From Acidobacteriota bacterium (GTDB taxonomy: Bacteria > Acidobacteriota > Terriglobia > Terriglobales > Acidobacteriaceae): a DNA stretch of 46,228 nucleotides. The stretch is taken from positions 1 through 46,228 of the forward strand of contig QIAP01000065.1 of the NCBI GenBank assembly GCA_003225075.1, read 5' to 3'. Shown piece by piece: positions 129 to 15,634 of the stretch (its first letter is position 1; every line of letters begins with the position of its first letter). Position numbers and translations under genes: made by a program. A model generated the notes under the pieces. That model searched no databases and was not told the DNA's origin. It worked only from the letters and a program-made list of their open reading frames with translations.

Positions 129-1034
129 TCATTGCACCGGCATCCGCAACTTAGATCCCTTGCGCTCGAGCCAGGTGTTGAACTGCTGGACCATTTCCCT
201 GGTCCACGGTGCATCGATTTGTCCAGGTGTGTACTTACCTTCGCGCAACATCATGTGACCCCATTCATCCACCAGATGATCCATCGCGGTGTCGTTTGCG
301 ACTTTGTCTGCCAGCTGTGAAGGGACAAACGTAATGCCCTCGGGATCGCCAATCGCGATGTCGCCCGGCATAACAGTTACGTCCCCGATACGAACCGCAA
401 CATTAATTCCCATCAACATGACGTTTTCGAGTGCCGAAGGATCAACGCCGCGCACATAGCATTGAAACCCGTGAATCTGTTGAATGCCGGTCACGTCGCG
501 CACCGCACCGTTCACAATAAGACCATTGTGGCTTTTGGCGTATATGGCAGTGGAAAGATTGTCACCCGCGAACGTGCCGTAGCGGATCTTTCCGAACAGA
601 TCGACGACGAGAATGTCATTCGGCTGGAGGATGTCGATCACCCAAGAGTTTTCATCCCCGATGCGTCCTTCTTTCCTGCCGTTGTTCTTAATAATCGAAT
701 CCACATCCGGGCGACGTGGCATGAAAACCGCGGTCACGACCCGGCCTACCAGGCGTTCCCCAGGATTAATTACTTTCCAGCCGCCCTCGAATTGATTGCG
801 ATAACCTGCGCCCTGCAACACATCCCACGCTTCGTCGGCCGTAACCTCCCGCAGCCCTTGAAGCACGGAGTCCGGTACCTTCGGCCGTCCGTCCTCGAAT
901 CGTTCGCCATGCCAATCAGGCGAGAACGTAATACGCTGTTCTTTGGAAAAGAGGCCCAATTGGCTGTGTGCGGCGTTGGTCAATCCCCACAGAACAGCGA
1001 TGCCGATTGCGAAGCAGCGGAACGATCGGTTCAT
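129..1034 (-). CDS. Exported RraA-family protein (aldolase/decarboxylase-like)
   Basis: This 301-residue protein opens with a Sec-type signal (MNRSFRCFAIGIAVLWGLTN, then AAHSQ). The rest is an RraA/HMG-aldolase fold domain; known members are metal-dependent 4-hydroxy-4-methyl-2-oxoglutarate aldolases or oxaloacetate decarboxylases. The core motif GLIVNGAVRD keeps the Arg-Asp pair that binds substrate and metal, but has Asn where most members have Asp (DGAVRD). The acidic residue usually two positions after RD is also absent (RDVTG). It lies 64 bp downstream of the SelA-like gene, in one minus-strand operon with RidA and the PQQ dehydrogenase. It is longer than plain RraA (about 160-220 residues) because of the signal and an N-terminal extension. 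The family is fairly sure; the reaction is not known. Confidence 0.85.
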   Translation of the reverse strand: MNRSFRCFAIGIAVLWGLTNAAHSQLGLFSKEQRITFSPDWHGERFEDGRPKVPDSVLQGLREVTADEAWDVLQGAGYRNQFEGGWKVINPGERLVGRVVTAVFMPRRPDVDSIIKNNGRKEGRIGDENSWVIDILQPNDILVVDLFGKIRYGTFAGDNLSTAIYAKSHNGLIVNGAVRDVTGIQQIHGFQCYVRGVDPSALENVMLMGINVAVRIGDVTVMPGDIAIGDPEGITFVPSQLADKVANDTAMDHLVDEWGHMMLREGKYTPGQIDAPWTREMVQQFNTWLERKGSKLRMPVQ

Positions 1035-1098: not shown

Positions 1099-2352
1099 TC
1101 AAGCGGAGTGCTCGCGAAACAGTTTGACCAACTGCTGCGCGACGATTTTGTCTTCACCCGGCTGCAACATGAATGAGTTCACCACCAGACCGCGCCTGTC
1201 CTCGCCCGTCCCTATGACGATGGATGGTCTTGAGCTTCGCAGCAATTTCGAAGCCTCTTGGGGCGTGAAGGAAATCCGACTCGAATCCCAGGTGATTTGC
1301 ATATGCGGAACGTGATTGGCGATATCCGGGACAAAGAAGGACGTGCTAACGCCAGTGACGTGCGTGATTTGCCGGGAGATTCCTTCGAGCTGGTCCTGCC
1401 ATTGTTTTGCCAGGGCGTCGTGGTCCTCATTGAGGTAGAGTTCGAGCGCTTTCACCATTCCGACAATTTCTTCTTTGCCGACCTTCTGGCTGCGGCCAAG
1501 TGTGTCCTCATGAGGGCTGTTGTTAAGCAGCGCGTTCGCAACCAAATCTGTGCGCCCGATTAGCAGTCCGGCGCATTGCGGACCGCGAATGGCTTTGCCG
1601 CCACTAAAGGCCACCAGGTCGTAGCCGATTTTGGTGTATTCCCAAAGGTGCGATACGGGCGGCGTATCGGCGGCGGCATCGTTGAAGCACGGCACGTTGT
1701 ACTGCTTTGCCAGCTTCGGCCACTCGTCGACTTTGATTTGCCCCGCCGCATTTGCAAAGTTTGTAAAATGCATCATGGCCGTCCGCGGGCCGACCGCTTT
1801 GTGAAGATCATCGCGGCTTTCGATCTCGATGAGCTTCACGCCCGTGGAGCGTAGCTGGTGATCAAAGGGATTGCGGTGTGATTTCTGGATGATCACCTCG
1901 GACTTCATCCCGGTGAGATCAGGCAATTGCTTGATGAAAGTTTCATTGTCGCCGGTGAGAATTCCAGCCAAGCCGGACTGAATTGCAGCAGCGGCGCCGG
2001 ACGTAACCAGCGCGGTGTATCCATCCGGCAACTTGAGCATTTCCGCGATCCGCTTCCCGGCAGCAACCTCTAAGTCCGGAATACTCACAAAGTGCCGTCC
2101 GGCTTGGGCCATGACCGCCTCAAGTTCCGGCCGAAGCACAGAGCCGCCAAGCATAGTCATGGTTCCTTCGCCGTTAATGACCGTGGTCACGCCCAGCTCT
2201 TCGTAGGGATTACCTGATTGTCCAAACCCGGTAACAGAAGTGCCAGCCGACCGATTCAGGCTGAATAATTTTGCTGGAGCTAACGCCACACCTGCAATTA
2301 CGGCTAGCGTCTCCAAGAACGAGCGTCGATTCCATTTTTCCTTCAGTGACAT
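1099..2352 (-). CDS. Tat-exported SelA-like PLP-dependent lyase/transferase
   Basis: This is a fold-type I PLP enzyme of 417 residues in the SelA-related family, which includes D-glucosaminate-6-phosphate ammonia-lyase. The PLP lysine is K253 in AFSGGKAIRGPQ, and D225 in CFNDAAADTPP is the likely pyridine-nitrogen aspartate. The N-terminus carries a twin-arginine signal (NRRSFLETLAV followed by a hydrophobic stretch), so the folded, PLP-loaded enzyme is predicted to be exported, which is unusual for this family. AAGGAG lies about 8 bases before the ATG. Its stop is 64 bp before the RraA start and its start is 18 bp after the RidA stop. A lyase releasing an enamine beside RidA makes biochemical sense, but the substrate is inference. 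True selenocysteine synthase is unlikely given the export signal and lack of SelB context. Confidence 0.85.
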   Translation of the reverse strand: MSLKEKWNRRSFLETLAVIAGVALAPAKLFSLNRSAGTSVTGFGQSGNPYEELGVTTVINGEGTMTMLGGSVLRPELEAVMAQAGRHFVSIPDLEVAAGKRIAEMLKLPDGYTALVTSGAAAAIQSGLAGILTGDNETFIKQLPDLTGMKSEVIIQKSHRNPFDHQLRSTGVKLIEIESRDDLHKAVGPRTAMMHFTNFANAAGQIKVDEWPKLAKQYNVPCFNDAAADTPPVSHLWEYTKIGYDLVAFSGGKAIRGPQCAGLLIGRTDLVANALLNNSPHEDTLGRSQKVGKEEIVGMVKALELYLNEDHDALAKQWQDQLEGISRQITHVTGVSTSFFVPDIANHVPHMQITWDSSRISFTPQEASKLLRSSRPSIVIGTGEDRRGLVVNSFMLQPGEDKIVAQQLVKLFREHSA

Positions 2353-2370
2353 GCTGCAAGCTCCTTGTAA

Positions 2371-2877
2371 TCACTTGCGGGTGACGGCGGCAATGCAATT
2401 GATTTCGAGCAATGAGTGTCCCGGGACCCCGGCCACGGACACGGTTGTGCGCGCAGGTCCCCCATGCGGAAAATATGTCTTGAAAACTTTGTTCATGCCC
2501 TCGTAGTAATCCAAATTTCCCAGATACACCGTTAGCTGCAAGATGCTGTCCATGGTGCCCCCGCCGGCCTCCACCAGCTTTTTCACATTGTTCATGACTT
2601 TCGTGGTATGGCTTTCGATGTCGCTCTGTTGCACCGAACCAGCATCATTCGCTCCCTGGCCTGAGATGTAAATTAGGCCGTTGTGGACAATGAGCGACGT
2701 GATCATCTGGGTGCCGTCGGCTGGTTTGCCGTCATAATCGAGTTTGCGGACAGTTGAATCCTGAGCGCTGGACTTTTTGGCGCCCAGTATGGTGCCGGTG
2801 ATGCCCAGCCCGGAAAGGATTGCGGCCAGGCGGAGTGCGAAGTTCCTGCGACTGAATGAACTGGAAATCATAGCCAT
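2371..2877 (-). CDS. Tat-exported RidA-family enamine/imine deaminase
   Basis: This RidA (YjgF/YER057c/UK114) protein of about 168 residues carries a twin-arginine signal (SRRNFALRLAAILSG). RidA proteins hydrolyse reactive enamine/imine intermediates released by PLP enzymes. The key Arg is present in PARTTVSV and the acidic residue in LLEINCIAA, so it should be active. I chose the ATG at 2877 over a GTG at 2895 because AGGAG sits about 8 bases upstream of it. It lies directly before the SelA-like PLP enzyme (18 bp apart), a functional pairing known from cytoplasmic RidA biology. Here both partners carry Tat signals, suggesting co-localisation outside the cytoplasm. The family is certain; the substrate is unknown. 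Confidence 0.88.
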   Translation of the reverse strand: MAMISSSFSRRNFALRLAAILSGLGITGTILGAKKSSAQDSTVRKLDYDGKPADGTQMITSLIVHNGLIYISGQGANDAGSVQQSDIESHTTKVMNNVKKLVEAGGGTMDSILQLTVYLGNLDYYEGMNKVFKTYFPHGGPARTTVSVAGVPGHSLLEINCIAAVTRK

Positions 2878-2925: not shown

Positions 2926-4584
2926 TCAAGGCAAGCCAAAGCTAAAGACGTCACTGCCGGATGCGATAGCTACGTACTGCTTGCCCGCGATTGCATAGCT
3001 CATTGGTGAGGCATCCACGCTCTGACCGGTATTGAAATGCCAGAGTGGTTCACCATTTTGTGCGTCCACAGCCTCAAACGATTGAGAGTCGTCTCCAAAG
3101 AAAACGATCCCACCGGCGGTGGTCATGGTTCCGCCGGACGAATATGTTGATCCCACTTGAGGATATTTCCAAGCGAAGCTTTTGGTGTCAAAGTTATAGG
3201 CCAGGAGAATCTTCTGGCGGCTCTCGCTGGAAAGATGTTTAACCCCGTTGGCGTAATAGGTGCGTCCCTCGGAGAACTGCTCCGGTTTCAAGAAGAAATT
3301 TCCGCAGTCCTCGAGCGCTTTGAAATAAAACAGATGAGTCACTTCGCTGTAAGAAGGTGCAAACCAATTGGTGGCTCCCGCGAAGCCGGGGCACACTCGG
3401 GTTCCTTCCGCTGACGGTTGAATGCCTGTGCGGATCGGACGTCCCTGCGCGTCAATGCCTCTTGCCCAGTTCAGTTTTTCCACGAAGGGGACGGCTGACA
3501 GAAATTTACCGTTGCTGCGGTCCAGCACATAGACAAATCCGTTGCGATTCGCTTCAACCAACAGCTTTCGCGGCTCCCCTTGGTAGACTGCGTCGATCAG
3601 AACGGGCGTTTCTGTCGCATCATAGTCAAAAAGATCATGAGGGGTGAATTGAAAATACCACTTCAGTTTGCCGTTGTCGGGATCCATGGCTAACACGCAG
3701 TCGGTATAAAGATCATCGCCAGGGCGCACTTCTCCATCGAAATCGGGAGACGGATTGCTGGTGCCCCAGTAGATAGTATTCAGTTCGGGATCGTACGTGC
3801 CCGGCATCCAAGTCGTGCCGCCACCATGGATATACAGTTTTCCCGGCCAACTGGCTGAGCCAAATTCGCCAGGTCCTGGAATCGTCCAGAAACGCCACGC
3901 TTGTTTTCCTGTGAGCGCATCGTACGCAGCAACGAATCCCCGGACGCCATCGTCTCCACCGGAAGTGCCCACCAGAACTTTGTCCTTGACCAGCAGCGGA
4001 GCACTGGTCGCGCCATAGTTCTTATTTTCGACCGCATATGCCACGTCCCATATTAAGTGGCCTGATCGCGCATCCAGGCAAAGCAGATGCGCGTTATCGG
4101 TCTCCAGATAAATTCGCGAATGCCATACCGCAACTCCTCGACTCACATGTCTCGACGCATCATCGATCAGGCCTTCGGTCACCGGACGCGTGTAGTGCCA
4201 TACAACTCGACCAGTTCGGGCATCGAGGGCAAGTGCATCGTTCGAAGCGGTTACAAACATCATTCCATTGATCACTACTGGCGTAACTTCCAGCCGGCTT
4301 GAATTGTCCGAATGGAAGACCCACTGGGCACGTAACTGGCCGACATTCTGAACGTTGATTTCACTGAGACTGCTGTAGCGCCGCCCGGAGTAATCGCCGT
4401 TATAGGAAACCCAGTTCTCGCCGGGCGGTTGGGCAACAAGATCTGCGGGGAGTACATCGACGGTGGTTGAAATAGGGGCATTAAACTTGTTCTGCGCGGC
4501 TGCGGCGACAAAGAGAAACAGCCAGACTAGAGTCGTCCATCTCGTTCTCGGCCTGATATACATGGTCCGGCGAGCTCTCACCAT
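2926..4584 (-). CDS. Exported PQQ-dependent dehydrogenase (type I quinoprotein)
   Basis: This 552-residue eight-bladed propeller quinoprotein of the alcohol-dehydrogenase type oxidises an alcohol or sugar and passes electrons to cytochrome c. Recognisable signatures are the N-terminal NWVSYNGDYSGRRYSSL block, repeated W-motif blades (GKLKWYFQ, GEPLWHF), IYWGTSNPSPDF and the active-site FTPHDLFDYDATETP. The vicinal Cys-Cys of methanol dehydrogenase appears absent; the aligned stretch reads ASRHVSRG. There is no C-terminal cytochrome c domain, so an external acceptor is needed; the di-haem cytochrome at 7063 is the obvious candidate. A signal peptide is visible (WTTLVWLFLFVAAAAQ). The start may be ATG 4584 or ATG 4563; neither has a strong ribosome site. 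Substrate not deducible. Confidence 0.9.
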   Translation of the reverse strand: MVRARRTMYIRPRTRWTTLVWLFLFVAAAAQNKFNAPISTTVDVLPADLVAQPPGENWVSYNGDYSGRRYSSLSEINVQNVGQLRAQWVFHSDNSSRLEVTPVVINGMMFVTASNDALALDARTGRVVWHYTRPVTEGLIDDASRHVSRGVAVWHSRIYLETDNAHLLCLDARSGHLIWDVAYAVENKNYGATSAPLLVKDKVLVGTSGGDDGVRGFVAAYDALTGKQAWRFWTIPGPGEFGSASWPGKLYIHGGGTTWMPGTYDPELNTIYWGTSNPSPDFDGEVRPGDDLYTDCVLAMDPDNGKLKWYFQFTPHDLFDYDATETPVLIDAVYQGEPRKLLVEANRNGFVYVLDRSNGKFLSAVPFVEKLNWARGIDAQGRPIRTGIQPSAEGTRVCPGFAGATNWFAPSYSEVTHLFYFKALEDCGNFFLKPEQFSEGRTYYANGVKHLSSESRQKILLAYNFDTKSFAWKYPQVGSTYSSGGTMTTAGGIVFFGDDSQSFEAVDAQNGEPLWHFNTGQSVDASPMSYAIAGKQYVAIASGSDVFSFGLP

Positions 4585-4624: not shown

Positions 4625-5377
4625 TTAGTGTGGAGCCGAAGCAGCTTTTGAGACAGAACGGAGCTGATGCACAGCGGAAGTTACCCCAGTCGGGCCCCGC
4701 TGAGTTTGCATGGACGCTTGATAGCCGGCGTTAACCATCCCGGAATGATCCCAAACCGGAGCGGCTATGCATCGAATGTGCGGTTCATTCTCCTCCAGAT
4801 CGCAGGCGTATCCATTCCGCCGCACTTTTTGCAAATGTGTTTGCAGCTCTTGAATGCTTCCAATCGTGTTCGCGGACATGCGCTTTAACTCGAGCTGGGG
4901 AATAATATTTGCCAGCTCCTGCGGTGGCATATACGCCAACAAAACCTTGCCGACTGCTGAGCAGTACAAGGGAACAGCGGCTCCGATGCGTGAATAGATG
5001 CGAAGTGGTTCCGAGGAATCGAGCTTCTCAACGTAGACAGCAGCCAGCCCGTGACGGACCGTCAAATGGACTGTTTCGCGAGTCTGCTGGTTTAATTTCT
5101 GCAAATACGGCAAGCTCAAGCGCCGAATATCGAGTTGCGCCAAAGCAGCCTGGCCAAGTGAAAAGCAGCCGAGGCCGAGGTGATAGATCCCCACGTCGCT
5201 ACAGTTTAAAAAGCTCGAAGATTCGAGATTTACCAGGAAGCGATGTACTGTACTAACCGGAAGGCCAGATATTTTTGCAACTTGCGACGCGGTTAAGCCT
5301 TTCTCGGCGTTGGCAAAGAAATTGAGCAGCCGCAGTCCGCGTTGCAGGGCGGTAATGTTGTAAGTTCGTTTTGCCAT
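4625..5377 (-). CDS. IclR-family transcriptional regulator
   Basis: The protein has 250 residues, the usual family length. An N-terminal winged helix (residues about 8-70, with GLTASQVAKISGLPVSTVHRFL) precedes the ligand-binding IclR effector domain (about 80-245, with VGKVLLAYMPPQEL and YACDLEENEPHIRCIAAPV). IclR proteins usually control catabolic operons for aromatic or sugar-acid substrates and bind small carboxylates. It sits between the RraA at 5457 and the PQQ dehydrogenase (40 bp gap) on the same strand. It is therefore probably the local regulator of both the minus-strand operon and the divergent RidA-cytochrome-lactonase genes; this is inferred from position. The ATG at 5377 gives the expected MAKRTYNITALQRGLRLL start. 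Confidence 0.92.
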   Translation of the reverse strand: MAKRTYNITALQRGLRLLNFFANAEKGLTASQVAKISGLPVSTVHRFLVNLESSSFLNCSDVGIYHLGLGCFSLGQAALAQLDIRRLSLPYLQKLNQQTRETVHLTVRHGLAAVYVEKLDSSEPLRIYSRIGAAVPLYCSAVGKVLLAYMPPQELANIIPQLELKRMSANTIGSIQELQTHLQKVRRNGYACDLEENEPHIRCIAAPVWDHSGMVNAGYQASMQTQRGPTGVTSAVHQLRSVSKAASAPH

Positions 5378-5456: not shown

Positions 5457-6245
5457 CTACAAGCGTCCAAATTGTTTCACCGCCTCTTGGATCGACTTGA
5501 GTTTTTCAATGTAGGGATACATCGAATGTTCTTTGAAGTCGAGTTGCTGGGCCAGAGCCAGGACCTCTTGAGCCTTGGCCCGGGGAACAACAACTACGCC
5601 GTCGGAATCGGCTACGACAACGTCGTAGGGATGCACAGCTACTCCGTCGCAGACCACCGGAACGTTCGCACCCGCAAACCGATAATGATTTACTGAGGTA
5701 GAGGGTACGATACCGAGCGCAAAAACAGGGAAGCTAATTTTACGAAGGTATCCCACATCGCGAACCCCACCGTCAATGACCGCTCCCGCGTAGCCTCTTG
5801 CGGACATGGCAGTTCCCATTAATCCTCCCATGCCCGCGATATCAATTCCGTCTTCCACTACCATGACATAGACGGAATTTGCTGTGCCCTGGTCAATTGC
5901 CGCCAGCATTCCATTCAGAGCAGCGGGGTCGTTGTTAGCTTCCGCTTTTTTAAGCAACACGGTGATGGCGAGCCCCGCGAACTTTGCGGGAAATATCGGC
6001 TGCATGCGATGCGTCATATACATTTTGCGTCCCGCAATCTGTTCCATAGCGTCGGACACCGAAGCAACTTCGACATGCCGAAATCCATCCAGCAGAGTCG
6101 CTTCTTCGTTGGGAGAGGTTGGTTGAGCGGCCGACTGCGCTGCAAGCAACCGGCCAACCTGTGAGAGTCCTGCCAGAAACAAGAGTACAGAAAGAATGAG
6201 GATGGCATTTTTTCGCTGGAGCCTTGGAAAGCGAGATTTGTTCAT
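5457..6245 (-). CDS. Exported RraA-family protein, second copy
   Basis: This 262-residue RraA-family protein has a Sec signal (KNAILILSVLLFLAGLSQ). Its core is closer to the family norm than the copy at 129-1034: GYAGAVIDGGVRD and DVVVADSDGVVVVPRAKA are textbook. A Gly lies 20 residues before the Arg of the RD pair, but the acidic residue expected two positions after RD is replaced (RDVGY). GGAGG sits about 5 bases before the ATG. It is the first gene of the minus-strand cluster and is divergent from the exported RidA at 6387. Two exported RraA paralogues in one cluster suggest two C-C cleavage or decarboxylation steps, or different substrates; this is inference. Confidence 0.87.
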   Translation of the reverse strand: MNKSRFPRLQRKNAILILSVLLFLAGLSQVGRLLAAQSAAQPTSPNEEATLLDGFRHVEVASVSDAMEQIAGRKMYMTHRMQPIFPAKFAGLAITVLLKKAEANNDPAALNGMLAAIDQGTANSVYVMVVEDGIDIAGMGGLMGTAMSARGYAGAVIDGGVRDVGYLRKISFPVFALGIVPSTSVNHYRFAGANVPVVCDGVAVHPYDVVVADSDGVVVVPRAKAQEVLALAQQLDFKEHSMYPYIEKLKSIQEAVKQFGRL

Positions 6246-6386: not shown

Positions 6387-6851
6387 ATGGCGACAAGAGT
6401 TCTTAAGCAATTGATGGTTCTGCTCATGATCACGGCCGGCTTTTTACTGACTGGCTCTGCCAGTTGTTTTGCTCAGCAGCGGCGCGCTATCAGCGTCGGA
6501 CCAGCCAAAGGGCTTCCATTTAGTGATGGCATGCTTGTCGGCAACACTCTCTACATTGCCGGAACTGAAGGTACCGATGACCAGGGAAAATTGAAAACCG
6601 GCGGGATAGGCCCGGAAACGCAAGCCGCACTCGAAAACATTGAGAAGGTAATCAAGGCGGCTGGGTTCGAGTTGAAGGATGTGGTTGCGGTGACGGTTTA
6701 CCTGGCAGACATTCATGAATTTGCGGATATGAACAAGGTGTACAAGAGTTTCATGCCCGATCCCAAGCCTACGCGCGCGACCGTGCAAGTCGGCGGTCTT
6801 GTCAACAACGCGCGCATTGAAATCTCGGCCGTTGCGGCCAAGGACAAGTAG
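6387..6851 (+). CDS. Exported RidA-family protein, second copy
   Basis: This RidA-family protein has 154 residues. The start is ATG 6387, preceded by AAAGGAG at about 9 bases. It gives a clean Sec signal peptide (LKQLMVLLMITAGFLLTG, cleavage near CFAQ); an in-frame upstream start at 6285 would add a non-signal-like head. The RidA core runs from AISVGPAKGLPFSDG to the end. The conserved Arg (PTRATVQV) and Glu (RIEISAVAA) are both present, so deaminase chemistry is plausible. It is divergent from RraA and followed after 211 bp by the cytochrome c gene. Together with 2371-2877 this makes two exported RidA copies in one locus, which supports enamine/imine chemistry outside the cytoplasm. Confidence 0.88.
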   Translation: MATRVLKQLMVLLMITAGFLLTGSASCFAQQRRAISVGPAKGLPFSDGMLVGNTLYIAGTEGTDDQGKLKTGGIGPETQAALENIEKVIKAAGFELKDVVAVTVYLADIHEFADMNKVYKSFMPDPKPTRATVQVGGLVNNARIEISAVAAKDK

Positions 6852-7062: not shown

Positions 7063-7953
7063 GTGGGCAAGGAGCAGGGGGGAGATATTCCGCACGTATC
7101 GTCGTACCCATGGATATTGCTGTTACTGGGCGCCGCTTGTGTCGGGGAAATGGTTCCGATTCTCAAGTCTCAGACCCGGCCACCGCGCCGTTCAAAATCT
7201 GCCTTAGCGTCCACGCATTTAGCAGGCCAACAAGTCTTCGCTTCGAATTGTGCATCGTGCCACGGATTAGATGGTCGCGGCGGTGAGCGGGCGCCCGATA
7301 TTGCGGGTACAGCAAAAGTACAAAAGTTTCCCGATGAGAAACTGTTTCATATTGTTGGGGACGGTATTCCAGCGACAGGAATGCCCGCCTTTCGCACGCT
7401 CGGCGCGGACAAAATCAAGGCAGTGGTGAGTTACCTGCGCGTTCTGCAAGGACGGACTCCTTCCGTCAAATTACCGGGTAATCCTGAGAGAGGTAAGCTG
7501 CTCTTTTTCGGTAAAGGGAGATGTTCCAACTGTCACATAATTGCCGGTGCGGGCGGTTTTATTGGAACTGATTTGTCCGTTTACGCCAAGACTCGGTCCG
7601 TCGAGGAAATCCGCGAGGCGATAACGAAGCCCGGGAAAAATGTGGAGACACATGGGAAGGAAAAGCGCGAAAGACCTGTAACGGTGCTCATGCGTGATGG
7701 GCAGAAATATATTGGCATCGCGCGCAACGAAGACAATTTTTCCCTACAGTTGCAGACCCTCGACGGAGCTTTTCATTTCCTGATGAAATCAGAACTGGAT
7801 CATATTGAGTATCAGCCGCAGTCCCTGATGCCATCGGATTATGGCTCAACCCTGAGCCGCCAGGAACTGGACGATCTGATTAGTTTTCTTGTCAGCACTT
7901 CGAAGTCCAGCAAGGCCAGGCAGTCCGCCGACAATGGTGAACCTGACCCTTAA
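7063..7953 (+). CDS. Di-haem cytochrome c, probable electron acceptor of the PQQ dehydrogenase
   Basis: This 296-residue protein has two CXXCH haem sites. CASCH at residues 63-67 has a likely axial Met in GMPAF (about 107). CSNCH at 154-158 has a candidate Met in SLMPSDYG. The second domain resembles the haem-binding domain found fused to membrane-bound dehydrogenases, with its interposed beta region (VLMRDGQKYIGIARNEDNF). The N-terminus carries an uncleaved or cleaved hydrophobic signal (YPWILLLLGAACVG). The start is GTG 7063, a weak but necessary choice because the signal lies directly after it. A PQQ enzyme without its own cytochrome domain lies 2.5 kb away, so this is the obvious partner. 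The 211-bp gap before it shows no clear promoter. Confidence 0.88.
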   Translation: MGKEQGGDIPHVSSYPWILLLLGAACVGEMVPILKSQTRPPRRSKSALASTHLAGQQVFASNCASCHGLDGRGGERAPDIAGTAKVQKFPDEKLFHIVGDGIPATGMPAFRTLGADKIKAVVSYLRVLQGRTPSVKLPGNPERGKLLFFGKGRCSNCHIIAGAGGFIGTDLSVYAKTRSVEEIREAITKPGKNVETHGKEKRERPVTVLMRDGQKYIGIARNEDNFSLQLQTLDGAFHFLMKSELDHIEYQPQSLMPSDYGSTLSRQELDDLISFLVSTSKSSKARQSADNGEPDP

Positions 7954-8010: not shown

Positions 8011-8985
8011 GTGGATCACAACACAGTATCAAGAGCAGGATCTCTGATCATAAGAGCCCTTTTGCTAACTATTGTTAGCGCGTCTCTCATCGCTGAAACG
8101 AATATCCGCACCTTTGAATTACAAGCCGTGCGACCAGAATTTTGGGATCTTCTCGATCACGATGCCAAGTTAAGCACAGTCGCGGGCGGATTCGGATTTA
8201 CAGAGGGACCCGTCTGGGATGAAGCCGGCTTTCTGTACGTGAGTGACGAGACTCTAAATAAGATTTTTCGCGTTTATCCTGATGGCAAGAAGGAAACCGT
8301 CATTTCTCTTGGCGATCCGGACGGCAGCACTTTCGACCGGCATCATCGTCTTCTTGACTGCGCCAGCGTTCTGCGAGCGATCATTGAAGTAAGTCCGGAG
8401 GGACAATACAAGATCCTCGCGGACCGTTATGAAGGGAAAAAATTCAACAGCCCGAATGATGTGGTGATTGGTCCAGATGGGGCGATTTACTTTACCGACC
8501 CGACCCTTGACTTGCCTCAGGGTGAGAAGCAAGAGATAGCCTTTCAGGGCGTGTACCGCCTGGACGACAAAGGGAGTGTGAAGCTGTTGACCAAAGATCT
8601 ATCACAGCCTAACGGGCTGGCTTTCTCGCCGGACGGCAAACATTTCTACGTGGACGACAGTGAGAAGAGAAACATTCGTGTATACGATTTTTCATCGGAT
8701 GGAACCATCAGCAATGGACGGATCTTTGGCGAAGAACCCGGCGGCAAGCACGAGGGCGTGCCGGATGGAATCAAAGTGGACGAGAAAGGCAACCTGTTCG
8801 TTACCGGTCCCAAGGGTATCTGGATATGGGATGCCGGAGGTCATCATCTCGGCACGATCGCCATGCCGGAACAACCGGCGAATCTGGCGTGGGGAGACAA
8901 AGACTATGGCACGCTCTATATAACTGCAACCACTTCAGTGTATCGCTTGCGGACCAAAACTCACGGTTACATACCCTATCGTTGA
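8011..8985 (+). CDS. Exported SMP-30/gluconolactonase-family lactonase
   Basis: This 324-residue six-bladed propeller belongs to the SMP-30/gluconolaconase/LRE family. The metal ligands are recognisable: Glu in GFTEGPVWD, Asn in FNSPNDVVIGPDG, and Asp in GVPDGIKVDEKGN. The start is GTG 8011. A hydrophobic signal follows (SLIIRALLLTIVSASLIA), so the enzyme is exported. Members hydrolyse sugar lactones such as gluconolactone, the direct products of sugar oxidation by quinoproteins, so it fits downstream of the PQQ dehydrogenase in this locus. It follows the cytochrome gene by 57 bp. Its 3' end overlaps the convergent discoidin/glycosidase fragment by 51 bp. Family call is firm; the lactone is unknown. 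Confidence 0.9.
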   Translation: MDHNTVSRAGSLIIRALLLTIVSASLIAETNIRTFELQAVRPEFWDLLDHDAKLSTVAGGFGFTEGPVWDEAGFLYVSDETLNKIFRVYPDGKKETVISLGDPDGSTFDRHHRLLDCASVLRAIIEVSPEGQYKILADRYEGKKFNSPNDVVIGPDGAIYFTDPTLDLPQGEKQEIAFQGVYRLDDKGSVKLLTKDLSQPNGLAFSPDGKHFYVDDSEKRNIRVYDFSSDGTISNGRIFGEEPGGKHEGVPDGIKVDEKGNLFVTGPKGIWIWDAGGHHLGTIAMPEQPANLAWGDKDYGTLYITATTSVYRLRTKTHGYIPYR

Positions 8986-9606
8986 GTATCGAGTATCCGG
9001 CGTGCCGCGCAACACGGTCACAGACGCTGCGGGTAGGCTGTAAGTTGCATTGAAAGCACCCTGTAAGGTGGATTTCACGGTTGGTCCATCCGGGTCTGCG
9101 TAGCCGTTTCTTCCGGCTGGATGCCACTGATACTGCGCCTTGCCAAATGTAATCATCGTGACCGGCCCGACGAACGAAGCGTCCTTCCCGGCATCATCAT
9201 CGTGAAACGCAATGCGCACCGGATGGGCGTTGTCATAATCCTTGTTGATTAGCATGAGCGACCACTGGTGGTCAGGGCGGAGTATGGCATAGGCGGTGAC
9301 CAGCACATCGCCGTCCGCGTCCCTTATGTCGGTCGAAGCTTTGAATACTCGATGCTGTGCGTCTACCGGTTGGACCCACTCTTGGGTGAGTAGCTGCGCG
9401 GCGAAGAATTGCGACGTGCGTTGTCTGATCTGATAGTTCCGATCCACCATGAACATGTGATAGGTCCCCCAACTGTTTGCGCATGCCGGATGTGGGGGAG
9501 AATAGGCAAGTGCGTGATAATAGTAAGTGGCCGTGCCGCCCGCCGTCAGAACCACACTTGCATAATATGAGTGAGCAGCTGCGGCTCTTCGTAGAGATTT
9601 TTCCAC
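8935..9606 (-). pseudogene. 3' part of a broken discoidin/glycosidase-like gene
   Basis: This frame (native from about 9555 downward) encodes the C-terminal half of the protein begun at 11024: TAGGTATYYYHALAYSP, NSWGTYHMFMVD, then a beta-sandwich-like end (DVLVTAYAILRPDHQWSLML). The upstream fragment ends in HIMQVW near 9555, so the two halves meet in different frames. In family members I recall, about 35-40 residues (a segment with an acidic ESN-like motif and an FGALWLADY-like helix) separate these two blocks. The break therefore looks like an out-of-frame internal deletion, not a one-base error; this is inferred from family memory. The 3' end runs 51 bp into the convergent lactonase gene. 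Confidence 0.65.
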
Positions 9607-11024
9607 GGCGTCTCGCAGCCGTCATACGGATAGTGTTCAAATGACATAAACGCCAGATCCGATAGCCGACCATGAGCCTTCAAGTAATCAAGAAATCGTC
9701 CGAACCATGAAGTCTTGCCCTGCGCGTCTGGCCACACTTTGATGTCTTCCGTAACACCCTCAAACACAGGCCCTCCGAGCTTAAGCTTCGGGTCAACGCG
9801 ATGGAGCGCCGTCGCCCACTGCAGGTATAGGGCGCCGTAATCCTCTGGAAGCATGTACTGGCCGTCGGGTTCTTCTCCCATTTCCACATACGAAATGGGA
9901 TAGCCACGTTTTTCCAGATAAGTGAGTTGTGCTACTGAATCTTCGGGCGTGCCGTAGAGCATTGCGACTGGAATGACGGCGGGAAGGCCCCGCGTTATGC
10001 CACTCGTATAGAACAAATCGAATCCTGGCTGATCTCCCGATTCCATGCGGTCGGGGGCAACGTATAAATCGGAAGGCTCATGCCACGGATCAACCGAACT
10101 GCAATAGGTGAGTGACTGATGTTGATCCGGAGAGTGATGAAGTACGTCTTTGAAGTTGCCATTAGCGTCCATCATGCCGACGTAAACTTCTTTGATGCCA
10201 TACCCGACGCAGTTGCGCCGATCGCTTGAACCATGGTTGTCGCAAGTGTTCGAGGATTGCGTCATCAAGACGCGAACATACTTTGTGTTGATAGGTGAGG
10301 CATCAAGCAGAAGGGCCGGAGTACCGCCTTTGCCATTCGTCACCACTCCTGAGACGAAGCCTTTCCACTCTCCTTTCGCTTGATCATCCATCGCGTCACC
10401 GTCGCCAACCCAGTACTGTACCTGGAAGGTTCGGGCATAGGGCTCCGCCCAGGCAATACGGATCGCGTTGACGTCCTGCTTTTTATCCAGGTCAATCACA
10501 ATCCACTGCGGATGGAGCGAGTCATCCTCCCCTGTGAACGGCTTGGTGAGATAAGGATTGCTCTTCCAATAAGTAGCCTCGTCTCCATCGTTCAGGCGCG
10601 AGAAGCCGTCAAACTCGGTTCCACCATTTCGGGTAAAGCCGCGATGACGGAGTGAATAGCCGTAGGAATGCCGAATCATCTCGGTCGGTGAGGAATTACC
10701 GGTGAAGTAGCCTTTGCCGGAGGGGTCGCTCCAGGTTCCTTTTGGATTCCAATGCCAGGCTTGAACAAACAACTCAGTGTTCTGCCGATAACTGATCGTC
10801 CCCCAGCCGGCGGAGAGAATTTCCTTAAGCTGGTCTGGTCTAAAAAATACGTCGGTGGCATTGCTGGGGACCCGGTCGACCGTCGAACCGAGCGCAGAGG
10901 GAGGACTAAATGAGTTCAGCACATGACTGGGAGTCGAATCTACTTGTACTGTCTGTGCAACGATGGCTGGCGCTGAGACGATGATGATTGATACGACGAT
11001 GTGGGAGCACGCGCACAAGAACAT
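9546..11024 (-). pseudogene. 5' part of a broken exported discoidin/glycosidase-like gene
   Basis: I place the start at ATG 11024, which gives a signal peptide (MFLCACSHIVVSIIIVSAPA). In-frame codons up to 11285 read as non-signal sequence. An F5/8-type C (discoidin) carbohydrate-binding-like domain follows, from TEFDGFSRLNDGDEATYWKS to TKYVRVLMTQSS. Next comes a TIM-barrel-like catalytic domain with ISYVEMGEEPDGQYMLPEDY, in which a Glu of GEEPDG is a plausible acid/base, and FMSFEHYPYDGCETPWKN. The frame stops at 9546 shortly after HIMQVW; the remainder is in another frame at 8935-9606. The protein probably acted on extracellular polysaccharide. Without the deleted stretch the barrel would be incomplete, so a pseudogene or an assembly error is likely. 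Confidence 0.65.
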
Positions 11025-11379
11025 TCTTGATGGCCTCACATAATTGGCGATATGCGCCCGCTCAAACCGCGAAGCTATGAGAATCATGAGTAAGCCCTCG
11101 GGTCGAATGCCGACAAGTGTAGAAGAAGTCCTTGCAGGATGCGGCAACAATTCAGCAATCTCACCAACTTTGGACTGGTCATTTTCGCCCAGTGAAAGCG
11201 GCTTGGTCATAGTTGGTGTCGTCGTTTGATAGTTTTGCAATCCGACATCGCTTCTGGATATTGGAATGTCGGCCTCCGCCGCCATAAATCGTTACACTGG
11301 CCACGTTTTTCAAAAAATCCATTACTGCCATCGAAATTCTAGATTGTACTTTTCAGCGTTAGCAGTTTAAACAATTGCG
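11025..11379. other. Divergent intergenic region upstream of gltB
   Basis: No gene is supported in these 355 bases; the open frames are short or are the unused 5' extension of the discoidin gene. It should hold the promoters of the two divergent genes, but no near-consensus -35/-10 pair stands out. The gltB start has no strong ribosome site. The only clear structure is the inverted repeat listed at 11242-11272. Confidence 0.4.
11242..11272. repeat. Inverted repeat CCGACAT-N17-ATGTCGG upstream of gltB
   Basis: A perfect 7-bp inverted repeat (11242-11248 and 11266-11272) with a 17-base spacer lies about 110 bp before the gltB start. It is not followed by a T-tract, so it is unlikely to be a terminator. 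The half-site spacing, about 24 bases start to start, would suit a dimeric or tetrameric regulator on one DNA face. The LysR gene downstream of gltB is one conceivable binder, but LysR sites usually have a T-N11-A core, which is not obvious here. Function unproven. Confidence 0.35.
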
Positions 11380-13938
11380 ATGGCAGTTAATCGCGGCAGT
11401 GTCTCAACCGACCACGATGCCTGTGGTGTCGGCTTCATCGCGCGACTTGGAAGCACAGGGTCGCGTGAAGTGGTGGAGCGCGCGCTGGAGGCACTGCTGC
11501 GACTTTCTCACCGCGGTGGCGTCGACGCGGACGGCCGCAGCGGCGATGGCGCAGGACTGCTAACCAGGATTCCAGACCGCTTTATCCGTCGTAGCGCCCG
11601 AGAAGCCGGAATAGAACTGCCAGCTTCCTTCGGCCTGGGAATGGTTTTCCTTCCGGCGGGCGCGGAAGCGCGAACGCGTGATGTGATTGAAATTATCGCA
11701 AAAGGAAACGGACTTCGATGTCTGGGGTGGCGTATTGTCCCCGTCGATTCGACGATTGTCGGACCGCGAGCCCGCGACACACTACCGGTTGTGCAGCAGT
11801 GTTTCTTTGCCGGTGGTCCCGAAGCCGATCTGGAACCGCTGCTTTATGTACTGCGGAAAGAAGTTGAAGCGGCCGCCCCGAAGGGAGTCTATTTTTGTTC
11901 ACTGTCTTCACGCACAGTGGTCTACAAGGGATTATTGACGCCGGAACAGTTGCCTGCGTTTTACCCGGATCTGCGCAGCTCGGAGTTCGAGAGTCCGTTC
12001 GCCATCTTTCATCAGCGCTACTCTACCAATACGCAACCGAGTTGGTCGCTGGCCCAGCCTTTCCGCTTGGTGGCACACAACGGCGAGATCAACACGATAA
12101 GTGGAAATCGGCGTTGGCTCAGGGCCAGGGAACCGGTTTTGCGGCAGACGCTCGGATTGTCTGATCGAGTTCGCTTGTTGGAAGAGGGCGTGAGCGACTC
12201 GGCAAGCTTCGACAACGGGCTGGAGATATTCATTCGTCAAGCCTACCCCTCGCACGCTGCGATGCTGTGCATGGTCCCTCCTGCGGTACAAGACCAGCGA
12301 CATACATCGCAGGAATACCGCTGTTTCATTGAAGCGCACGCTCGCGAACATGAGCCGTGGGATGGACCGGCCGCACTGATTTTCACGGACGGCGTGACTG
12401 TGGGGGCGAAGCTCGATCGCAATGGCCTGCGACCGCTGCGGTATACGGTGACCTCTGACGGCTTGATCGTCGTGGGCTCGGAAGTGGGCGTTGTCGATCT
12501 CCGCGGCAAACGGGTGACGCAGCGCCAGCGTCTTGGTCCTGGCGAAATGTTGCTCGCCAATCCAATAACTGGAAGCTTCTGGCGCCCGCAGGAAATTCTG
12601 AAACTGAAGGGATGGGGTAACCCAAAGCGGTGTTCACTGCCGCGACGCGTAATCGCGACTGGACAGAGCTGTGATTTGCCGCCGGCGGAAGTCAAAAGGG
12701 AAATGGTGGCTTTAGGCTGGAGCGCAGATCAGTTTCGCCTGCTTTTCCTGCCGCTGGTGCAGGACGCGCAGGAAGCCGTTTGGAGTATGGGCGATGACAC
12801 GCCGCCTGCCTTCCTCTCTACTATGCGGAGGCCTCTCTGGGAGTACTGCAAACAACGATTTGCCCAGGTGACGAACCCGCCTATAGATCCTCTGCGCGAG
12901 ACTCACGTCATGTCGCTTGACGTTTTTCTCGGCGCGGACACCGTGATCAGTTCTCCTCTGCTCGATTCCGGCCAGATAAAAGTGCTTGCCGACATTCTGC
13001 GCCCAGTACAGCGCATCGATTTTACTTTTTCGGGCGATAGTGGGATTGAAGGTGCGAAGACTGCCTTGACGCGGGTGCAAGACCAGGCTGGCAATGCTGC
13101 GGCGCTGAAACCAGGAATGATCTTGCTAAGCGACCGAGGGATAGACGCGAATCGAGCGGCGCTGCCGGCTTTGCTGGCACTGGCAGCCGCATGGAAATCA
13201 ATGGTGCGGGCAGGATTTTTCGACGTGCCGCTGGTGATTGAGACCGGACAAGTCATCGAGACCCACCACGTGGCACTGTTGATCGCGGCCGGTGCCAGTG
13301 CTGTAGTTCCCTACATGGCATTGCAGCAGGCGGCCAGCCTGAGCCCCGAAGGTCCCCGCAAGTATCGCATTGCAATAGAGAAGGGACTGAGGAAGGTGCT
13401 GGCGCGCATGGGGATCTCAACGGTTACGAGTTATCGCAACAGCCAGCTCTTCGAAATCGTAGGCTTGGACGAAGATCTTTGTAAGGAATTGTTTGAAGAC
13501 GCAAATTATACGATCGGCGGGATTGGACTGTCTGATCTTCTGCAAGACTGCATGGAACGCCACGGCGCAGCCTACGCTTCCGACAAAGGAGAACTGTGCG
13601 ATGCCGGCTTATATCGCTTCCGACACAACGGGGAGCGCCATGCGAGTTCGCCTGAACTTGTGCGTCGGATGCACCGCTACATTAAGTCAAATAACGTGGA
13701 AGACTATCGCAGGTTCAGCGAATTGAGCCACGAAACACAGCCGCTTGTCATTCGCGACCTGCTAGAAGTCACCGCCGCTGTGCCAGTGCCGTTGCATGAG
13801 GTGGAGCCCGAGGCTTCACTGCTCAGCCGGTTTTCTACCCAGGCAAGGCGGGGAAGATCCGGCAGTCTACACAGACTATTCCGGTGCCAACAATCGGGTG
13901 AAGCAAGTCGCTTCGGCGCGCTTCGGAGTCACCACTGA
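11380..13938 (+). pseudogene. gltB: Glutamate synthase large subunit, 5' part (frame broken)
   Basis: GltB makes glutamate from glutamine and 2-oxoglutarate. This 852-codon frame holds the class II glutaminase domain, with the N-terminal nucleophile Cys15 in DHDACGVGFIA, QRYSTNTQPSW and AHNGEINTISGNRRW. The central domain and the start of the FMN synthase domain follow (VPLHEVEPEASLLSRF). Native sequence ends at about codon 822 (13845). The last 30 codons (RRGRSGSLHRLF onward) are out-of-frame read-through. The continuation lies in the next frame at about 13846-15634. Between STQA here and GGEDP there, homologues have about 28-30 residues of the MSFGSLS...NTGE type that are missing, so bases were deleted, not just shifted. 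Either a real inactivating mutation or an assembly fault. Confidence 0.85.
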
Positions 13939-15634
13939 GTATCTGATCCATGCGGACGAGCTGGAGATCAAGATTGCGCAAGGAGCGAAGCCGGGGGAGG
14001 GTGGACAACTGCCTGCCGCAAAAGTCACGGCGTATATCGCTAAACTTCGCCATGCCGTTCCCAACATGGCGCTGATCTCACCGCCTCCACACCACGACAT
14101 CTATAGCATCGAAGATTTGGCCCAGTTGATCTACGATCTGCGCGCGGTGAATCCGCATGCCCGGATCGGCGTGAAACTTGTTTCCAGCGGGAGTGTCGGC
14201 ATCATTGCAGCCGGCGTCGCCAAGGCAGGGGCGAACGTTATCACCATCAGCGGTTATGACGGCGGCACGGGTGCGTCGCCTCTCACATCCATAAAGAACA
14301 CCGGAATTCCGTGGGAGATTGGCCTTTACGAGGCGCATTGTGCGTTGGTACGGACAGGGTTGCGCGGGCGAGTACGCTTGCGCGTGGATGGGGGTTTCAA
14401 GTTTGCGCGGGACGTCATCTTTGGAGCACTGCTCGGGGCAGAAGAGTTTGGTTTTGGTACCGCGGCTCTGCTTGCCGTAGGCTGCGTGATGGCCCGCCAA
14501 TGTCACCTGAACACCTGTCCGGTGGGTATTGCCACTCAGGATGAAAAGTTGCGGGCTCGTTTTTCCGGAACTCCGGAGATGGTTGAAAGCTATTTTCGGT
14601 CTGTTGCAGTTGAGGTGCGCGAGCTGCTGGCTGGCATGGGAGCCTGTTCGATTGATGAAATAGTAGGCTCTGTGGACCGTCTGCGTCCACGAAATGCGCA
14701 AGCAGAACGAGCGTTGGGATATCTGCTGGAGCCAATCGAGCGTGTCCCGCAGTTAGCCTGCCGGCAGGAGAGCGACACGAGCCTGCATCTCCGACTGAAC
14801 CGCTTTGTCAACGGCCTGGAACACTTGGCTGACCATCCTCACCGCTTCCATATTGCGAATTGCGATCGGGCAATCGGCGCTCACTTGAGCGGTGAAGTGC
14901 TGCGCCGCCTGGGGCCATCACCCGCTCTTCCGGTGTCAATGGATTATGAATTTGTAGGGTCTGCGGGACAAAGTTTTGGTGCATTCCTGATCGCCGGAAT
15001 CAACTTTCGGCTGACGGGGGAAGCCAATGATTACGTCGGTAAAGGTCTCTCTGGAGGCGCCATCTCAATCAGCGCGGGCACGGAAAGTTCTCAGCGCGGT
15101 GACGTGCTAGTGGGAAATACGGTTCTTTACGGCGCTACTGCTGGCGAATTGTATGTCGCCGGAAGAGCAGGTGAGCGATTCGGAGTACGAAACAGCGGCG
15201 CTCTTGCCGTTGTAGAAGGTGTGGGGCAACACGGTTGTGAGTACATGACCGCGGGTGTTGTCGTAATTTTGGGGCCTGCCGGCACCAACCTGGGTGCGGG
15301 GATGACTGGCGGGTTAGCCTATCTGTTGCGCGATTCCGTGGCCGGGGACGGTTATAACCATCAATCTGTGCGGATGGTTCCGCTTGAAGTGCGGGAGGAG
15401 TTGTGGCTGCGACGCGTTCTGCAAAAACATCTGCGCCTCACCGGCAGTCCACGGGCGGCAAGGTTGCTGAGCAGCGATGCTGCGCTGCCGCTGCTCCGGG
15501 TAGAACCGTTGCACCGCCCGTGCTCTATCGCAGAAACCTGGTCGGGCAGTCTGAAGCGACTGCGAGGGGACAGTGTGGTCCCGATGGAGTCTCCTCAAAT
15601 CGTTTCTCCCGAGTTAGCAATCATGTTGCGATAG
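13796..15634 (+). pseudogene. gltB: Glutamate synthase large subunit, 3' part (frame broken)
   Basis: This second frame resumes GltB at GGEDPAVYTDYSG (about 13847). The first 16 or so codons (MRWSPRLHCSAG) are out-of-frame sequence of the 5' half. It holds the FMN/2-oxoglutarate site (KPGEGGQLP, SPPPHHDIYSIEDLAQLIYDL, GYDGGTGASPLTSIKNTG) and the 3Fe-4S cysteines in CVMARQCHLNTCPVG. The C-terminal GXGXG beta-helix follows (GAISISAG, VLYGATAGELYVAGRAGERF, GAGMTGG). All parts except the junction look well conserved, so the lesion is recent or artefactual. No gltD (small subunit) is adjacent; a LysR gene follows. Confidence 0.85.

Follow-up and report, generated by a model that had tools for sequence, protein, structure and literature searches.

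A DgaE-like PLP enzyme and an adjacent RidA, both with predicted twin-arginine leaders, suggest extracytoplasmic deamination in Acidobacteriota

Two adjoining genes of an Acidobacteriota bacterium encode a fold-type I PLP enzyme and a RidA, each with a predicted twin-arginine (Tat) leader, and we read them as a Tat-exported functional pair for the extracytoplasmic deamination of a non-phosphorylated 2-amino-aldonate, in which RidA would hydrolyze the released enamine or imine (probability roughly 0.6). The parts of this reading differ in strength: export of both proteins is predicted with near certainty, their action in one pathway is likely, and the 2-amino-aldonate is a tentative choice of substrate that falls a little short of even odds. 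Leaders, their conservation, gene neighborhood, active-site residues, and the matching compartment were all assessed by comparing sequences of the window, i.e., the whole stretch of DNA analyzed, 46,228 nucleotides long (Table 1), with those of relatives.

RidA, as known from cytoplasm and organelles, protects PLP enzymes against enamines. The pair described here suggests that soil acidobacteria export two folded proteins, a PLP enzyme that resembles an amino-sugar-acid ammonia-lyase and the RidA that disposes of its reactive product, and that chemistry known so far from within cells also takes place beyond the inner membrane. A PLP lyase and a neighboring RidA that are both exported, and are conserved in this state across the phylum, would mean that enamines have to be dealt with in another compartment once the PLP enzyme is moved there; they would also provide a clean test of RidA as a pathway enzyme versus a mere detoxifier, because there are few other PLP targets in the periplasm. 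The pair is present in a cultured species, Granulicella tundricola, and points to an unrecognized use of amino-sugar acids by abundant soil bacteria. Each part has known relatives, while neither the exported DgaE-like/RidA pair nor any exported bacterial RidA was found described in the open-access literature.

Table 1. Features of the gene pair and its neighborhood in the window.
Feature	Position	Strand	Remarks
RraA-like aldolase 1 (RraA1)	129..1034	(-)	Sec-type leader; D-X20-R-D motif; adjoins the PLP gene in many relatives
PLP enzyme, DgaE/SelA-like fold-type I	1099..2352	(-)	417 aa; K253 (Schiff base), D225, and R267 kept
Tat signal region, PLP enzyme	2239..2352	(-)	NRRSFLETLAVIAGVALAPAKLF; R8, R9, F11 invariant
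RidA	2371..2877	(-)	168 aa from ATG; R143 and E158 correspond to E. coli RidA R105 and E120
Tat signal region, RidA	2761..2877	(-)	SRRNFALRLAAILSGLGITGTILGAKKSSAQ; R10, R11 invariant
PQQ-dehydrogenase-like beta-propeller	2926..4584	(-)	Leader; 'acido-empty quinoprotein' group; conserved upstream of RidA
IclR regulator, BhcR/KdgR-like	4625..5377	(-)	
RraA-like aldolase 2 (RraA2)	5457..6245	(-)	Sec-type leader
Second RidA (RidA2)	6387..6851	(+)	Sec-type leader MATRVLKQLMVLLMITAGFLLTG
Cytochrome c / heme-binding domain protein	7063..7953	(+)	N-terminal hydrophobic segment
SMP-30/gluconolactonase-like lactonase	8011..8985	(+)	Leader

The two genes lie on the minus strand. As the initial annotation had it, they adjoin with a gap of 18 bp (2353-2370) and both products bear a Tat motif: each N-terminus has RRxF followed by a hydrophobic stretch, of ~13 residues in the PLP enzyme (MSLKEKWNRRSFLETLAVIAGVALAPAKLF...) and ~17 residues in RidA (MAMISSSFSRRNFALRLAAILSGLGITGTILGAKKSSAQ...). 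A purine-rich Shine-Dalgarno sequence precedes both starts (AAGGAG for the PLP enzyme, AGGAG for RidA), and an alternative GTG start of RidA is possible six codons upstream of the ATG.

Among 31 orthologous loci from Acidobacteriota, 69-83% identical, both proteins have RR wherever the N-terminus could be read. R8, R9, and F11 are the sole invariant columns in the first 40 residues of a 20-row alignment of the PLP enzyme, as are R10, R11, and G25 in an 18-row alignment of RidA; mean column identity over the same 40 residues is 0.55 and 0.48, respectively. The RidA alignment also contains a near-invariant alanine (0.94) at the expected signal peptidase cleavage position. Because RR is invariant while the rest of the leader varies, the motifs are not due to chance. 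The TIGR01409 profile (TAT_signal_seq) matched 7 of the 20 PLP orthologues (best E 0.0018) and no RidA, and gave the window PLP enzyme 10.8 bits, below its 16.7-bit cut-off; it is a weak detector here, and RR conservation was therefore used instead. A TatC gene indicates a Tat translocase in the genome, which stands alongside the conserved RR and the hydrophobic stretch as a mark of a Tat substrate. Leaders were called by a script (RRx[hydrophobic] plus a charge-free hydrophobic window), with exceptions judged by eye. A search for leaders too short for Tat, or for homologues keeping the start without the signal, turned up two exceptions among ~180 leaders: an acidobacterial PLP homologue with no leader (L102) and a RidA in which RR is replaced by RS (L047). 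L102 (G046:C1:1591943-1603079) stands alone among the intact acidobacterial DgaE-like homologues examined in lacking a Tat leader, and its start codon is uncertain.

The comparison was extended to 128 distinct homologues with their surroundings, deduplicated and with plasmid records included; the searches, run at differing E-value limits, gave matches in 183 of 399 class genomes and 40 of 396 phylum genomes. For phyla other than Acidobacteriota the search covered plasmids only, so we make no claim that the pair occurs only in Acidobacteria. A Tat-type leader is present on 111 of the 116 PLP homologues in Acidobacteriota, and on none of the 12 that come from rhizobia, a roseobacter, and haloarchaea. 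Of the five acidobacterial homologues without a Tat call, two (L031, L088) are truncated where their contig stops, two (L032, L059) are the second half of a gene split by a frameshift, and L102 is the one genuine exception. With a Rid partner defined as a Rid gene ≤2.5 kb from the PLP gene, the script assigned the Rid beside 68 acidobacterial Tat-PLP genes a Tat leader in 59 cases and a Sec-like leader in 6, leaving 3 uncalled, namely L058 (SRRGF, Tat by eye), L005 (contig-end cut), and L047; 43 Tat-PLP homologues have no Rid inside 2.5 kb, some owing to contig ends. Neither partner has a leader in any of the non-acidobacterial pairs (9/9).

As a background, Rid leaders in nine acidobacterial genomes were called by eye from the sequences. 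Rid genes beside a PLP gene had a Tat leader in 4 of 6 cases and an export signal of either kind in 6 of 6, versus 1 of 28 and 8 of 28 for those away from one (Fisher p = 0.0015 and 0.0022, respectively); several acidobacterial Rid genes distant from the pair also bear leaders. In the tree, the signal-less proteins and DGL lie together on one side; the Tat/no-Tat contrast is, therefore, confounded with phylogeny and in part a single ancestral event, and more independent evidence comes from several acidobacterial clades, in which the pairing recurs with different Rid subfamilies. In predicted localization, the PLP enzyme and RidA switch compartment together. The original proposal that both partners are Tat-exported, bringing RidA chemistry to a new compartment, is supported at the level of predicted localization by the invariant RR motifs, by exported pairs that recur among paralogous clades across the phylum, and by the leaderless state of both proteins outside it.

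Significant profile and fold matches place the PLP enzyme in the DgaE-like superfamily (TIGR01437 / Pfam SelA, Aminotran_5). It matches TIGR01437 with an E-value of 4e-49 and 167 bits, which is under the DgaE equivalog cut-off of 385 bits, and Pfam SelA with 35.9 bits over a cut-off of 22.8; an additional profile-search score is 123.8 bits. With 167 bits for TIGR01437 against 39 for SelA, DgaE-like is a better name than the 'SelA-like' first given; selenocysteine synthase (SelA) itself was ruled out (TIGR00474, 39.4 bits versus a cut-off of 267.9). An AlphaFold model of moderate confidence (pLDDT 68) ranked DGL (7lc0) first in a fold search, with TM 0.68/0.76, followed by Cap15 (8t7j), whose TM is slightly higher at 0.71/0.79. 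Of the two pocket residues named in the initial annotation, K253 is the Schiff-base lysine, aligning with K213 of DGL (PDB 7lc0), and D225 lies within a DAA motif; the alpha-carboxylate arginine R226 is likewise kept, as R267.

The window enzyme shares with DGL/DgaE the fold, the PLP lysine, the alpha-carboxylate arginine, TIGR01437, and an aldolase downstream in the pathway, but it differs in its Tat leader, its RidA partner, the loss of both His-162/163 and the phosphate-binding arginine cluster, and a score far under the DgaE equivalog cut-off. The histidine pair is deleted in a shorter loop (FTN--FANAAG in the window), a loss found in the aligned acidobacterial homologues as well; the phosphate-binding R301 is replaced by H350; and no equivalents of R332/R346 were seen in the C-terminal stretch of the window enzyme, a weaker comparison in that the DGL sequence used ends at 331. 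The missing histidines and phosphate-binding arginines rule out glucosaminate-6-phosphate ammonia-lyase and make a phosphorylated substrate unlikely, consistent with an extracytoplasmic site. The H163A variant of DGL retains activity but lets the enamine go free; for the removal of such enamines, the authors of that work name an enzyme like RidA (PMC9529869). Loss of His-163 as a predictor of a RidA partner was nonetheless rejected as a rule, because the loss is family-wide in Acidobacteria and in haloarchaea, where the enzymes are cytosolic, and Rid also adjoins the rhizobial enzymes in which HH is retained.

The partner scores 81.6 bits against PF01042, over a cut-off of 27.3, and 79.7 bits against TIGR00004, whose cut-off is 106.25. 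It belongs to the fold family of E. coli RidA/YjgF, which is cytoplasmic, whereas the window RidA has a Tat leader. R105 of the E. coli protein has a catalytic role; with this arginine and Glu120 kept as R143 and E158, the window RidA is probably active as an imine/enamine hydrolase. A structural model (pLDDT 73.5) added nothing beyond the sequence match.

In the pathway that we infer, including export, substrate, enamine release, and the order of steps, the PLP enzyme would fold and bind PLP in the cytoplasm and then leave through Tat with its cofactor, by analogy with PvdN and PtaA. These periplasmic enzymes of pyoverdine tailoring are likewise exported by Tat, folded and with their cofactor (PMC6206403), but they serve siderophore tailoring and belong to other PLP families, and the part of that source devoted to them mentions no RidA partner. 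The initial annotation called PLP enzymes outside the cytoplasm rare; their Tat export is uncommon but has precedent. Outside the inner membrane, the window enzyme would act on a non-phosphorylated 2-amino-3-hydroxy acid, the likeliest being a 2-amino-2-deoxy-aldonate, e.g., D-glucosaminate, from which it would eliminate water and ammonia. It would probably release an enamine, because the His-163 proton donor of DGL is missing. The co-exported RidA would tautomerize or hydrolyze this enamine to a 2-keto-3-deoxy acid and ammonia. Cleavage of this acid by exported RraA-type aldolases could then yield pyruvate plus an aldehyde. The aldonate itself would be produced from sugar by the dehydrogenase, cytochrome c, and lactonase.

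A similar reaction is known in Pseudoalteromonas, which turns GlcN1A into KDG by deamination with no phosphorylation step; the RidA protein OngD is essential there, its role having been left open (PMC9537276). The ong pathway of GlcNAc1A catabolism (OngB/OngC/OngD) resembles the proposed one in deaminating non-phosphorylated glucosaminate to KDG and in its dedicated, essential RidA. However, OngC is a cytoplasmic fold-type III enzyme, and OngD is 127 aa in full length and has no leader. 'Detoxify', the word of the original proposal, may be too narrow for the RidA step, since cells cannot grow on the substrate of that analogous pathway without the cytosolic OngD (PMC9537276).

The gene neighborhood is conserved. 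The order [RraA2]-[IclR]-[quinoprotein]-[RidA]-[PLP enzyme] recurs at orthologous loci, where RidA2, cytochrome c, and gluconolactonase are oriented divergently and RraA1 convergently. By eye, the cluster's enzymes in the window start with a leader or a hydrophobic segment, and conserved neighbors mostly have leaders; the whole conserved cluster looks extracytoplasmic, a point absent from the initial annotation. RidA2 has a Sec-type leader rather than a Tat one, so RidA export does not in itself require Tat. RraA2, unlike RraA1, lacks the D-X20-R-D motif. The quinoprotein gives a match to TIGR04528 ('acido-empty quinoprotein group A') and is without the adjacent-cysteine motif, which puts its cofactor in doubt; it may not be a PQQ dehydrogenase.

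Elsewhere, the pair travels with EF_0837-type amidohydrolase/deacetylases, PIG-L deacetylases, glucose-1-dehydrogenase, lactonases, and IclR regulators. The haloarchaeal, rhizobial, and roseobacter modules (L116, L117, L139, L150-L152, L154) share the DgaE-like/Rid pairing, mostly with a deacetylase and IclR and in some cases with glucose dehydrogenase and lactonase, but their partners are leaderless and transporters are often nearby; the haloarchaeal module consists of PIG-L deacetylase, PLP, Rid, glucose-1-dehydrogenase, lactonase, and IclR. In chitin-using natronoarchaea, a DgaE-like gene, glucose dehydrogenase, RutC/Rid, and IclR lie inside chitinase clusters, and a GlcNAc-to-glucosaminate route has been predicted (PMC12343721). 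The G. tundricola plasmid pACIX902 (L115), from strain MP5ACTX9, has the order RraA-PLP(Tat)-RidA(Tat)-PLP(Tat)-deacetylase-lactonase, and its pair has the accessions WP_013582118/WP_013582117. Its second Tat-bearing DgaE-like protein (9695-11293, 532 aa), annotated merely as 'PLP-dependent transferase', directly follows RidA, which is therefore flanked by two PLP enzymes predicted to be exported.

The neighboring genes, the related modules, and the natronoarchaeal and OngD precedents together point to an amino-aldonate. It is conceivable, if doubtful, that Acidobacteria run an entire non-phosphorylating, Entner-Doudoroff-like route for amino-sugar acids outside the inner membrane, where oxidation, lactone opening, Tat-exported deamination with the RidA step, and exported aldol cleavage would succeed one another, and pyruvate, not the sugar acid, would be taken up. 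The same neighbors, i.e., sugar-acid enzymes (lactonase, sugar/alcohol dehydrogenase-like, RraA aldolases) and a KdgR-like IclR, joined in relatives by amino-sugar-type deacetylases, make it unlikely that the exported pair instead acts on an ordinary beta-hydroxy amino acid (D-/L-serine, threonine, or a cell-wall-derived D-amino acid), with RidA clearing 2-aminoacrylate outside the inner membrane, even though 2-aminoacrylate is the classical substrate of RidA and OngC, the analogous GlcN1A deaminase, also accepts D-serine and D-threonine (PMC9537276).

The close structural match to Cap15 raises the further idea of an oxygen-dependent, Cap15-like enzyme yielding a reactive imine for RidA to hydrolyze. 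We consider this improbable, as Cap15 belongs to antibiotic biosynthesis whereas the genes here have a catabolic context, and as transporters and deacetylases accompany the same module in rhizobia, a roseobacter, and haloarchaea. Some Rid-family proteins are thought to act through binding, and the two genes adjoin; still, that RidA leaves the cytoplasm chiefly in a folded complex with the PLP enzyme, as a hitchhiker or stabilizer and not an active deaminase, seems a slimmer chance yet, given its own invariant RR leader, its conserved catalytic Arg and Glu, and a separate RidA2 with a Sec-type leader in the cluster. Hardly credible is a cytoplasmic location of both proteins with non-functional RR motifs, for which the sub-threshold TIGR01409 score speaks, since RR is invariant within variable leaders in all readable orthologues and the cytosolic relatives are leaderless.

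Exported Rid proteins, as judged from their leaders, look expanded in Acidobacteriota. One ORF (G000:C224 ~217-1490, L145) encodes three Rid domains behind a Sec-type leader, MRWLLAGFLLSGVALTQQQ; G245 and G298 have similar triple-Rid ORFs with export signals close to PLP genes, and G255 has such ORFs too. Finally, two genes of the window appear split by frameshifts, perhaps through errors in the contig assembly: a secreted glycosidase-like gene, represented by the overlapping ORFs 8935-9606 and 9546-11285, and a glutamate synthase gene, represented by the overlapping ORFs 11380-13938 and 13796-15634.
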